DNA from: Halorubrum aethiopicum
GTDB lineage: Archaea; Halobacteriota; Halobacteria; Halobacteriales; Haloferacaceae
Reading direction: 5' to 3'
Assembly (NCBI RefSeq): GCF_001542905.1
Contig: NZ_LOAJ01000001.1
Coordinates: forward strand, 744,001 to 808,000
DNA: 64,000 bases
In this document: in pieces, positions 32,867-45,996 of the stretch
Layout of the letters: every line of letters starts with the position of its first letter
Numbering within the stretch: position 1 is the first letter of the stretch
Program-made: the position numbers and the translations under genes
Notes under the pieces: model-generated
Databases searched by the model: none
What the model saw: only the letters and a program-made list of their open reading frames with translations
What the model was told of the DNA's origin: nothing

Positions 32867-34204
32867 ATGAACCACGAACGCTCCCGTGAACTGTACGACC
32901 GCGCGCTGTCGGTTTCGCCGGGCGGCGTCAACTCCTCGGTCCGGGCGACGATGCCGCACCCGTTCTTCGTCGAGCGCGGCGACGGCGGGCACGTGATCGA
33001 CGCCGACGGAAACCGGTACGTCGACTGGGTGATGGGGTACGGCCCACTGCTGTACGGCCACGACCTGCCCGAGCCGGTCGAGGCGGCGATCCAGTCGCAC
33101 GTCGCCGCCGGGCCGATGTACGGCGCGCCGACGGAGATCGAAGTCGAGCACGCGGAGTTCGTGGCGCGACACGTCCCGAGCGTCGAGTCGATCCGGTTCG
33201 TCAACTCGGGGACGGAGGCGACGGTGTCGGCGGTGCGGCTGGCGCGCGGCCACACCGGCCGCGACAAGGTCGTCGTGATGCAGGGCGGCTACCACGGCGC
33301 ACAGGAGTCGACGCTCGTCGAGGGCGGTCCCGAGAACCCGCGTCCCTCGACGGCGGGGATCCCCGAGTCGTTCGCCGAACACACCCTCCCGATCCCCTTT
33401 AACGATCCCGAGGCCGCGACGGAGGTGTTCGCCGAACACGGCGACGACATCGCCGCGGTCCTCGTCGAGCCGATCCTCGCCAACATGGGGATCGTGATGC
33501 CCGTCGACGGCTACCACGAGACGCTGCGGGACCTCTGTGACGACCACGGGTCGCTTCTGATCTTCGACGAGGTGATCACGGGGTTCCGGGTGGGCGGGCT
33601 CGGCTGCGCGCAGTCGAAGTTCGGCGTCACCCCGGACGTGACGACGTTCGGAAAGATAATCGGCGGCGGGTTCCCGGTCGGCGCGATCGGCGGGCGAGCG
33701 GAGGTGATCGAGGAGTTCACCCCGTCCGGCGACGTCTTCCAGTCCGGCACGTTCTCGGGGCACCCGGTCACGATGGCCGCGGGGAAGGCCACGCTGGAGT
33801 ACGCCGCCGAGAACGACGTGTACGAGCACGTGAACCGGCTCGGCCGGAAGCTCCGGGAGGGGATCGCGGAGATCTGCGCCGAGCGCGCCCCCGAGTACAC
33901 CGTCGTCGGCACCGACTCGATGTTCAAGACGGTCTTCACCCGCGAGGCTCCCGACGACCCCGACGCCTGCTGTGCGGGCGGCTGCCTCCAGGACCTCGAC
34001 TGCGACCGCTACGACGCCTGTCCGAAGACCGGCGCGGACGTGGCGGACGCCGCCACCGACCGCTGGGAGCGGGTGTTCTGGCAGGAGATGAAGGACCGCG
34101 GCGTCTTCCTCACCGCCAACCAGTTCGAGTGCCAGTTCACCTCCTACGCGCACACCGAGGAGGACGTCGAGACGACGCTCGAGGCGTACCGCGAGGCTAT
34201 CTGA
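32867..34204 (+). CDS. hemL: Glutamate-1-semialdehyde 2,1-aminomutase
   Basis: HemL makes 5-aminolevulinate for heme, cobalamin and siroheme. The 445-residue PLP enzyme has the [11 protein letters not shown] start, [17 protein letters not shown], the cofactor Asp in [12 protein letters not shown] and the PLP Lys in [14 protein letters not shown]. Near the C-terminus a Cys-rich insert, [20 protein letters not shown], interrupts the usual fold; five Cys could bind metal. ATG at 32867 is preferred to the in-frame GTG two codons earlier. Confidence 0.96.
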
Positions 34205-34217
34205 GAACGCCGCCGTG

Positions 34218-34290
34218 CGGTGGCGCGCGCCGTGAGCGGCCCCTCGGGCCGCGAACGCACCGCGCGAGTCCTCGCGACTGGGGCTTTGAC
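34218..34290 (-). repeat. Reduced copy 3 of the dispersed repeat
   Basis: On the minus strand it starts caaagccccagtcgcgagga followed by ctcgcgcg, matching the start of copies 1 and 2. It then jumps to a hairpin (gcggccc, loop gag, gggccgc) and the end block gcgcgcgccaccgc. The roughly 200-base middle is missing, as if both ends were kept by internal deletion. It lies after hemL. Confidence 0.75.
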
Positions 34291-34624
34291 GCTGCTCGTC
34301 GTCGAGCCGTAGCCGCTCGCGTGCGGACCTTCGTCGGGATTCGCGCTCGTCGGAAGTGCGGAACCTTTTTATGCGGAAGCGGAATTACGTCCTAGTGATG
34401 ACCGCGGAGGCTCGTCGCGACCCCGCCCTCTTCCGACAGCGACGAGCCCCGCGACCGCGACGAGCAGTCCGACCGCCGCGACCGGTTTCCGGCGCGGCGC
34501 GACGACCGGCCCCCTGAGGCCGCAGGGTTCACTCGTCGCGTTCGCGCCGTTCCGTCCCGGAGAGTCGTCACTATACCGTCCGTCAGCGTCGGCTCCGGGG
34601 TTTTGTTACGACATCTAAATCGAT
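34291..34624. other. Rest of the hemL-argG gap
   Basis: No gene is well supported. A TATA-like patch (cctttttatgcgg, about 34364-34376) precedes a 39-codon frame at 34398-34517, whose product is Arg/Pro-rich and unconvincing. On the minus strand, 34370-34600 reads as a start-less fragment with one hydrophobic span (see findings). Confidence 0.45.
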
Positions 34625-34634
34625 GAATTTAAGG
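34625..34634 (+). promoter_or_regulatory. TATA-like box of argG-argH
   Basis: gaatttaagg is centred 29 bases before the argG ATG at 34659, as for a leaderless transcript. Confidence 0.6.
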
Positions 34635-34658
34635 GTCTAAGACGGTTCTGCTCCGATA

Positions 34659-35882
34659 ATGACAAGCGTTGCACTCGCGTTCAGTGGCGGACTCGACACC
34701 ACGGTTTGCGTTCCGATCCTGAAAGAGGAGTACGGCTACGACGAGGTCATCGGCGTCAACGTCGACGTCGGCCAGCCGACCGACGAGTTCGACGAGGCGG
34801 AGGAGACCGCCGAGGCGCTGGGGCTCGACCTCCACGTCGTCGACGCGAAGGCGGAGTTCGCGGACCTCTGTTTCGACGCGGTGAAGGCGAACGCCACCTA
34901 CCAGGGCTACCCGCTCGGGACCGCGCTGGCGCGTCCCGTCATCGCCGAGTCGATCCTCGAGGTCGCCGAGGAGCAGGGCTGTGACGCCATCGCCCACGGC
35001 TGTACGGGCAAGGGCAACGACCAGCTCCGCTTCGAGGCCGTCTGGCGCGGCTCCGACCTCGAGGTGATCGCGCCGGTCCGCGAGCTCGGGCTCACCCGCG
35101 AGTGGGAGATCGAGTACGCCGCGGAGAAGGACCTGCCCGTCGAGGCGGGCGACGGCGGCGTCTGGTCCATCGACGAGAACATCTGGTCGCGCGCGGTCGA
35201 GGGCGGGAAACTCGAGAACCCGAACTACGAGCCGCCGGAGGACATCTACGAGTGGACCGCCGAGCCCGAGGGCGAGACGACCATCGAGGTGACCTTCGAG
35301 GAGGGCGTCCCCGTCGCCGTCGACGGCGAGGAGATGGACCCCGTCTCGCTGATCCAGTACCTCAACGAGTACGCGGGCGAGTTCGGCATCGGCCGCACCG
35401 ACGTGATGGAGGACCGCATGCTCGGGCTGAAGGTGCGCGAGAACTACGAGCACCCGGCCGCGACCGTCCTGCTCACGGCTCACCAGGCCCTCGAGGACCT
35501 CGTCTTGACCAAGAACGAGCGCTCGTTCAAGAAGGGGATCGAACACGAGTGGTCCGAGAAGGCCTACCAGGGCCTCGTCTTCGCGCCCGTCGTCGACGCG
35601 CTGAACGCCTTCATCGACGAGACCCAGGACGTGGTGACCGGCACGGCGACCGTGAAGGTCTCCGGCGGCAACTGCCGCGTCGTCGCCCGCGACTCCGAGT
35701 ACGCGGTGTACTCCGAGGAGATGGCCTCGTTCAACACCGAGGACGTCGCCGGCATCGCCCAGGAGGACGCCACGGGCGTCGCGAAGTACCACGGGCTCCA
35801 GGAGCGCCTCGCCAACGACGTGAGCGCGGGCGTGAAAAAGCCCGAACTCGCCACGGACGGCTCCGGCGAGACGGACGAGTAG
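34659..35882 (+). CDS. argG: Argininosuccinate synthase
   Basis: ArgG joins citrulline and aspartate with ATP to make argininosuccinate. The 407-residue protein has the PP-loop LAFSGGLDTTVCVPIL at the start, the aspartate and citrulline site IAHGCTGKGNDQLRFE, and GIGRTDVMEDRMLGLK and REWEIEYA regions. Length is normal. Its stop TAG is followed at once by the ATG of argH, so the two are one transcript. An antisense open frame of about 950 codons lies over argG-argH and is a composition artefact. Confidence 0.98.
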   Translation: MTSVALAFSGGLDTTVCVPILKEEYGYDEVIGVNVDVGQPTDEFDEAEETAEALGLDLHVVDAKAEFADLCFDAVKANATYQGYPLGTALARPVIAESILEVAEEQGCDAIAHGCTGKGNDQLRFEAVWRGSDLEVIAPVRELGLTREWEIEYAAEKDLPVEAGDGGVWSIDENIWSRAVEGGKLENPNYEPPEDIYEWTAEPEGETTIEVTFEEGVPVAVDGEEMDPVSLIQYLNEYAGEFGIGRTDVMEDRMLGLKVRENYEHPAATVLLTAHQALEDLVLTKNERSFKKGIEHEWSEKAYQGLVFAPVVDALNAFIDETQDVVTGTATVKVSGGNCRVVARDSEYAVYSEEMASFNTEDVAGIAQEDATGVAKYHGLQERLANDVSAGVKKPELATDGSGETDE

Positions 35883-44437: not shown

Positions 44438-44510
44438 GCACGCGCGCGAGGGAGCACCCGGCCGCGCCGCCGGAGCCGCGGCGGCGCGGCCGGTGCGAGG
44501 CTGGGGAGGC
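44438..44510 (-). repeat. Partial copy 4 of the dispersed repeat
   Basis: On the minus strand it starts with cctccccagcctcg (44496-44509), a block found inside copies 1 and 2. A long hairpin follows, with a perfect 14-base-pair stem (44458-44471 with 44480-44493), and then gctccctcgcgcgcg. Only the 3' part of the repeat is present. Also in this gap, the unit cgaccgctggcctaccg occurs twice at about 44587-44623. Confidence 0.55.
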
Positions 44511-44617
44511 GAGAGGCGACCTCCGCCGGCCGTCGCTCGCTGGAGACGACCGGAGGCACTCGGGGCGATCGGGGCCGCTCGGGGGCGACCGCTGGCCTAC
44601 CGAGAACGACCGCTGGC

Positions 44618-45683: not shown

Positions 45684-45996
45684 GGTGAACACTGCCAAAG
45701 CCCCAGTCGCGAGAACTCGGGGGCACCGGAAGTCGCAGCGTCTCGTTTCACTCGACGCTGCGACTTCCGAGGTCTCGTTCGCTTCGCTCACGAGACCCTC
45801 GGTGCGCTCCTCGCTCGCGTTGCTTGCTGCGGTGCTTACGTCGGCCGCCGTCGTCCTCGCGACTGCCCCTTTGAGTCCCACCCCGCCCCGCACAGCCCCG
45901 CACCTCACACCTCCCCAGCCTCGCTGCTCACTTCGTTCGCAGCGTCCCTCGCGGGCTCCTCGTGCCCCTTCGGGGCACTCGGAGGCGCGCCACCGG
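45684..45996 (+). repeat. Long copy 2 of the dispersed repeat
   Basis: Begins ggtgaacactgccaaagccc then cagtcgcgagaactcg. It carries an inverted segment (gtcgcagcgtc paired with gacgctgcgac around 45731-45763) absent from copy 1, the core cccctttgagtcccacccc, the block cctccccagcctcg, a hairpin tgccccttcggggca, and the end ggcgcgccaccg. It fills most of the gap before the phosphohexomutase gene; no protein is supported. Confidence 0.8.

Follow-up and report, generated by a model that had tools for sequence, protein, structure and literature searches.

A 72-base intergenic repeat between hemL and argG of Halorubrum aethiopicum, very probably derived in place by deletion from a longer, hairpin-rich repeat

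The gap between hemL and argG in the window (the whole 64,000-nucleotide stretch of H. aethiopicum DNA analysed here; hemL, argG and argF are named from NCBIfam models) carries on its minus strand, at 34217-34288, a 72-base reduced copy of a repeat, composed of a box, a direct-repeat remnant, a hairpin and a terminal motif. From 34288 to 34217 it reads CAAAGCCCCAGTCGCGAGGA, then CTCGCGCGG, a 7-bp hairpin and GCGCGCCACCGC. Box 2 (CAAAGCCCCAGTCGCGAGG, 34270-34288), identified from the sequence and from genome-wide box matches, is followed by an A, by the nonanucleotide CTCGCGCGG (34260-34268; CCGCGCGAG on the plus strand) and, after a short linker, by hairpin 2 (34231-34257), which was delimited from the sequence and the grammar of the family and comprises an outer CGT/ACG, a TC/TC internal loop and an inner 7-bp stem closed by the triloop GAG (GCGGCCC-GAG-GGGCCGC, 34252-34236). 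The terminal motif GCGCGCCACCGC (34217-34228) comes last, 12 bases 3' of the hemL stop codon. The element had been predicted at 34218-34290 with a length of 73 bases; the element stands, with its edges moved by one base and by two bases. A search of the window against Rfam at gathering scores found nothing, nor did one of 34150-34700 at E≤1.

Besides the reduced copy, the window holds two full copies and one divergent member of the family. Copy A (plus strand, 1686-1949) has its box at 1686-1704, its core at 1828-1847 and its end at 1937-1949. Copy C (plus strand, 45696-45995), which contains an extra nested hairpin, has its box at 45696-45714, box 3 at 45855-45873, the core at 45904-45923 and the end at 45984-45995. 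The divergent member (minus strand, 44439-44515; core, hairpin 1 and CTCCCTCGCGC) lies in the convergent gap after argF and is kept in place in G012, G006, G022 and G011; in G022 the letters of its stem differ and yet, by eye, appear paired. The first 20 bases of the reduced copy have further occurrences in the window, at 1686 (2 mismatches), at 45696 (1 mismatch) and, inverted, at 45873 (3 mismatches), while none would be expected by chance from 100 dinucleotide shuffles. Copies A and C, which we take to be copies 1 and 2 of the original prediction, extend over 264 and 300 bases from box to end, so that 192 or 228 bases are missing from the reduced copy. The minus-strand sequence and these two copies thus confirm that the short form has kept both ends and a hairpin (box, hairpin and terminal motif) and lacks a middle of 190-230 bases.

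Genome-wide, the 19-base box has 126 matches with up to 3 mismatches (1 for the reversed control), the core 20-mer CTCACRCCTCCCCAGCCTCG has 128 with up to 1 mismatch (reversed control, 0) and the end motif GGCGCGCCACCG has 85 (reversed control, 9). The motif matches listed form 130 clusters, a few of which come from a single weak motif, and the density is about one family copy per 24 kb of chromosome. The stretches that were read cover 122 of the 126 box matches (59 of 59 on the plus strand, 63 of 67 on the minus strand), 60 of 60 plus-strand and 61 of 68 minus-strand core matches at ≤1 mismatch, and all 85 end motifs. The stretches fetched contain 122 core copies at ≤2 mismatches, and the inverted box 3 makes up 37 of the 122 box matches read.

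A full element starts with an upstream stretch ending in GATCGTTGCTGGCGCGGTGAACACC, sometimes followed by box 1 and a spacer, and then by box 2. Its middle begins with a variable stretch rich in hairpins and goes on with box 3 (CCTCGCGACTGCCCCTTTG), AGTCCCACCC and a run rich in C; its 3' part consists of the core CTCACRCCTCCCCAGCCTC, hairpin 1, TCCCTCGCG, hairpin 2 and GGCGCGCCACCGC, often with CGATCGCTC..CTTCGCCTGTACTGACCG. Copies span about 260-480 bases and have two or more distinct hairpins with fixed motifs between them. The commonest architecture, box-box 3-core-end, was found in 49 of 236 chained motif groups, many of the 236 being single weak motifs or an inverted box 3, and it is preceded by box 1 in 15 cases. 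By eye, several copies (L014, L015, L023 and others) contain nested pairs of perfect hairpins whose letters vary while the linkers, for example TGATGACGA or TGGCAG, stay fixed. Several family copies are succeeded, at a CTGTACTGACCG box, by a second repeat (GTGAGCATCCGCGAGCGAAGCGAGCGGTTCACCGACGG...TTTTTCC); examples are those that end at C1:431012, 561655, 1012625 and 1965575 of this genome.

The core is present in all 52 Halorubrum genomes, with 8 to 193 matches in each, and in 61 of 392 genomes (32 of these 392 being Halorubrum) and 10 of 95 genera sampled in the order. In the genomes checked, the family is confined to one contig. In the present genome, contig C1 holds all 62 plus-strand core matches and 38 minus-strand ones among the matches listed (100 of 132), 7 core matches at ≤1 mismatch having no assigned location; all 85 end motifs are on C1, and the probability of finding 0 of 85 elsewhere by chance is 0.0006. 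Likewise, 65 of 65 core matches of G016 are on one contig (C2; probability 3e-9, calculated with a rounded genome size) and 59 of 59 of G024 are on its C1. A literature search for the family or its kind, at the level of titles and abstract beginnings, found no description of the family.

The history of the reduced copy was followed through the hemL-argG gap of its relatives. A hemL match exists in 52 of 52 Halorubrum genomes, that of G019 being only remote. The gap survey comprised 50 of the 52 genomes (G019, with no close hemL match, and G034 are absent) and a Halorubrum aquaticum record (L031), which equals G004 in this gap. Where no argG start was located, the first 900 bases were read, and G040 was read to its contig end. 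A core-bearing copy in the same orientation as the reduced copy occupies 14 of the 50 gaps, a box plus an end without core is found in two (this genome and G012), a core-bearing copy in the opposite orientation in one, and scattered motifs in the opposite orientation, some of which may be due to chance, in four. The gap part read contains no family motif in the other 29 genomes; the sequence is therefore not a constant component of this gap resembling the family at its ends at chance level, as the original prediction had allowed might turn out.

G012 bears a short form of the identical type at the same position as in the window, and G006 and G004 have full copies at the same hemL-argG site, in the same orientation and with an alignable right flank. 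The end of the element is 11-12 bases 3' of the hemL stop codon in all four genomes; the terminal motif of G004, with two bases different, was missed by the pattern used for the gap survey. In a hemL tree built from 30 surveyed genomes and H. aquaticum, this genome (G000), G022, G012, G006, G011 and G004 belong to one clade (support 100/99), in which G022 is nearest to this genome (97/77) and G012 comes next (85/86). The gap of G022 has an unrelated insert and no family copy, and that of G011 has no copy, so that losses must be assumed. The G022 gap (L145) includes two small ORFs that by eye resemble a VapBC-type pair, where relatives carry the repeat. In the G048 gap (L177) and similar ones, tandem box units of ~57-63 bases with TTTATAA motifs adjoin the element, about three to four of them in G048 as judged by eye.

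The point at which the long and short forms part is defined by the nonanucleotide. Read along the plus strand, G012 and G006 share 51 of 54 bases across the terminal motif, hairpin 2 and CCGCGCGAG; beyond CCGCGCGAG, the sequence of G012 is box 2 and that of G006 is the tail. Agreement that breaks off at this sequence is the hallmark of a deletion between a pair of 9-base repeats. The box-side context of the repeat is found in eight other copies of this genome, the reduced copy excluded, and the tail-side context in four. Both contexts were found together in none of the copies read in this genome, and the exact parent copy has for this reason not been seen. Among the stretches read (122 of 126 boxes, 85 of 85 ends), no other box-to-end form without core has this length, and the reduced copy is the only one in which box and end lie within 54 bases; one further copy without a recognised core is long and has a duplicated end. 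A copy near C1:578383 shows a duplicated end region with a spacing of 154 bases.

The site shared with G012, the full copies in relatives, the 9-base breakpoint and the lack of a second instance in the stretches read make it most likely that the 72-base form arose by deletion in place. We consider it very probable that it is the remnant of a complete family copy inherited at this site, and the case for the deletion having occurred in place is strong. In an ancestor common to this genome and G012, two direct repeats of 9 bases (CCGCGCGAG), one beside box 2 and the other at the foot of hairpin 2 of the parent copy, would have paired, and the central hairpin, box 3, the core motif and hairpin 1 would have been removed, leaving CTCGCGCGG at 34260-34268 as the sole remaining copy of the repeat and the presumed deletion point. 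That the change was a deletion rather than a gain, and that it proceeded by slippage or a micro-homology step, are what we infer from this arrangement. The flank that follows box 2 here is the one that follows box 1 in G004, which suggests a second deletion, between box 1 and box 2; recombination between these boxes may also have removed the upstream unit.

A precedent exists in Haloquadratum walsbyi. Deletions have been described there that are bracketed by direct repeats, 10-19 bases long in 16 cases and 7-9 bases long in 11, as has a 390-base element reduced to 52 bases of fused ends (PMC3119063). Two features of such core deletions were looked for, and both are found at the present locus: a direct repeat of about 7-19 bases with one copy left, here CCGCGCGAG at the junction, and an undeleted form at the same site, in G006, G004 and H. 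aquaticum (L031). The terminal-only PATEs of H. walsbyi are alike in that short direct repeats flank the lost core and one of them stays, and in that both ends are kept while a relative has a full copy at the same site; the repeats are mostly 7-19 bases long there and 9 here (PMC3119063). They differ in being tied to IS605-type transposons, while no IS605 link was found in this genome (PMC3119063); the comparison made here is, moreover, one between species, not strains. The short form can be assigned to repeat-mediated core deletion, a process that has been published for haloarchaea (PMC3119063). The short copy is a clear between-species case of short-repeat deletion in archaea.

The retention of both ends and of a hairpin had been called typical of miniature elements, which would make the 72-base unit a small mobile derivative, MITE- or PATE-like, inserted as such. 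Two further points could be cited in its favor: the family appears to have been mobile on at least one occasion (copy C1:955230, see below), and the 52-base terminal-only element of Haloquadratum may be mobile (PMC3119063). Yet this short form occurs once in the stretches read, full copies are found at the identical joints in relatives and its breakpoint falls in a 9-base repeat. On account of the shared joints and the lack of a second instance in the stretches read, this reading was dropped as very improbable. Even less credible is the converse polarity, in which the short form came first and was lengthened at the site by added modules, as the nested extra hairpins in family copies and the species-dependent number of box units beside the element in this gap might suggest: the full copies of the gap share their core, box 3 and hairpin 1 with most other copies, these modules are unlikely to have regrown independently at a single site, core-bearing copies occur in 14 of 50 genomes against two with box and end alone, and no deeper-branching species among the 50 gaps has only the short form.

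In-place deletion very probably accounts for the reduced copy; the parent family matters more, with its rewritten stems, its maintained pairing and strand-specific loops, and its bias for gene 3' ends. Hairpins 1 and 2 follow one plan: stem, TC/TC internal loop, stem and small loop. In the 113 hairpins 1 and 103 hairpins 2 that could be parsed among the 122 core copies, the 2x2 internal loop, where called, is TC/TC in 80 of 83 and 76 of 84 cases, respectively (it was not called in 30 more hairpins 1 and 19 more hairpins 2), and the triloop is TNC in 86 of 98 and 46 of 85. On the G-rich strand these correspond to tandem GA/GA and GNA. GNA triloops and tandem GA mismatches are stable in DNA.

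Pairing in the inner stem of hairpin 2 is 0.905, compared with 0.612 when arms are swapped between copies (best of 5000 swaps, 0.738), and that of the outer stem is 0.792, compared with 0.483 (best swap, 0.729). The signal of hairpin 1 is weaker (0.585 versus 0.490; best swap, 0.577) because several register classes are mixed. In 20 ungapped hairpins, taken from 25 distinct 27-base ones (the other five have a longer inner stem, in another register), substitutions affect both partners in 7 of 10 pairs. These hairpins score 0.538 for covariation, versus 0.167, with 0 of 500 shuffles as high and slid structures at ≤0.146, counts that are inflated by shared descent, since the copies are paralogs. 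Of the two strands, the G-strand is the better-folding one in 84 of 84 modules when RNA parameters are used and in 79 of 84 when DNA parameters are used (84 of the 122 modules were included), in part because G-rich strands allow G-U or G-T pairs. Folding of the reduced copy is no better than that of its dinucleotide shuffles (z -0.29, -0.53 and -0.36), and fold energy was therefore discarded as proof of its hairpin; the hairpin is credible by virtue of the family-wide covariation. In other genera, the framework core-hairpin 1-TCCCTCGCGC-hairpin 2-GCGCGCC persists although the stems are unrelated; of 40 sampled copies, 38 allowed hairpin 1 to be delimited and 32 hairpin 2, with stems that are not all good, and the loops are unlike those of Halorubrum, often ACGAG, CTGAAC or ATGAA on the C-strand. 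The evidence that structure is held on one strand of these paralogous copies is good. What is most conserved in this intergenic repeat of mosaic build is the fold of one strand.

Conservation of a one-strand fold points to a protein or RNA process that recognises a folded single strand as what most likely keeps or spreads the family. We tentatively propose that the family is an undescribed chromosomal element of haloarchaea, defined by a G-strand fold (in Halorubrum, small GNA-type loop caps and stems broken by tandem GA/GA) and not by its sequence, and dependent for spread or maintenance on some factor other than a resident Y1 transposase or an IS605 derivative. The density of copies, the rewritten stems, the restriction to one contig and the 3' bias together make selection on a folded single strand testable, the candidate strands being an RNA 3' end or single-stranded DNA in replication; the question of what enzyme mobilises elements of this kind when they have no known transposase becomes testable as well.

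The bias for 3' ends is seen in gene calls made with our own composition-based script. By these calls, 121 of 122 family copies are intergenic, and 52 of 122 lie in convergent gaps, while among the remaining gaps of those stretches 54 of 312 are convergent (odds ratio 3.5, p 1e-7; 3.4-7.9 depending on the smallest gap counted); 22 copies lie in divergent gaps. On the end side, the core is at least 146 bases away from the start of the next gene and at least 103 bases from its stop. Judged from sequence features, the copies might be structured 3' ends, terminators or protectors of mRNA ends, and be kept on the chromosome for that reason, a role with which the convergent-gap enrichment, the minimum spacings and the persistence of the argF-side member in four relatives would agree. 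Such a role is nevertheless somewhat doubtful: 22 copies are in divergent gaps, tolerance to insertion alone also enriches 3' ends, and the genes were called by composition only. The family may either serve at 3' ends or be a tolerated selfish element.

As for its movement, the copy at C1:955230 occupies ~480 bases between convergent genes that are 17, 39 and 38 bases apart in G012, G022 and G006, respectively, so that a lineage-specific gain is likely there. In this one insertion examined, the flanks are too diverged for a target duplication to be read. Boxes 2 and 3 are inverted with respect to each other but internal, and the outer ends of the element are not fixed.

Strand-specific hairpins and intergenic mosaic copies resemble the REP/BIME and PATE systems and could indicate spreading by a Y1/RAYT-type transposase (IS200/IS605, REP-like) acting on folded single strands. 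Bacterial REP/BIME/REPIN elements with RAYT are alike in having many intergenic, palindromic, mosaic copies and in maintaining pairing while stem letters vary (PMC2817692, PMC3116915, PMC3733652, PMC6006769). Unlike REP/BIME, the present family is archaeal, its copies are ~260-480 bases long with two or more hairpins and fixed motifs between, and there is no Y1 gene in this genome. PF01797 (Y1), present in 41 of 52 Halorubrum genomes, has no match in this genome and is absent from 10 others, seven of which have 71-117 core matches; copy number and Y1 count are uncorrelated over the 52 genomes (rho -0.04, p 0.78). A Y1/RAYT mobiliser was accordingly rejected as improbable, although a Y1 gene since lost may have acted in the past.

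The family shares with MITEs a short, non-coding, multi-copy nature, and is unlike them in the strand asymmetry of its fold. Haloarchaeal small mobile repeats and PATEs, with which it was compared by description, are likewise transposase-free and dispersed on the chromosome; the family differs from them in its covarying stems and in its presence in every Halorubrum genome searched. Derivation from IS605 or PATE elements was set aside, as the four PF07282 (TnpB) loci of this genome show no resemblance to the family: they lack its core, box and end motifs and give no significant alignment. An origin from viruses or plasmids was likewise discarded, with 0 exact core matches in IMG/VR, no match in a phage search and six partial plasmid matches (14-57% of the query), in collections that may leave out near relatives.

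Lastly, an ORF of 39 codons, 31% of them Arg, precedes argG on the plus strand at 34398-34517 and starts ~33 bases downstream of the first base of a TATA-like box. From its composition and position, it could encode an archaeal leader peptide that mediates arginine-dependent control; a literature search at the level of titles and abstract beginnings found no arginine leader of this kind. A comparable ORF of 38-42 codons with 26-36% Arg is present in 36 of 51 gap sequences, among which the H. aquaticum record duplicates G004.
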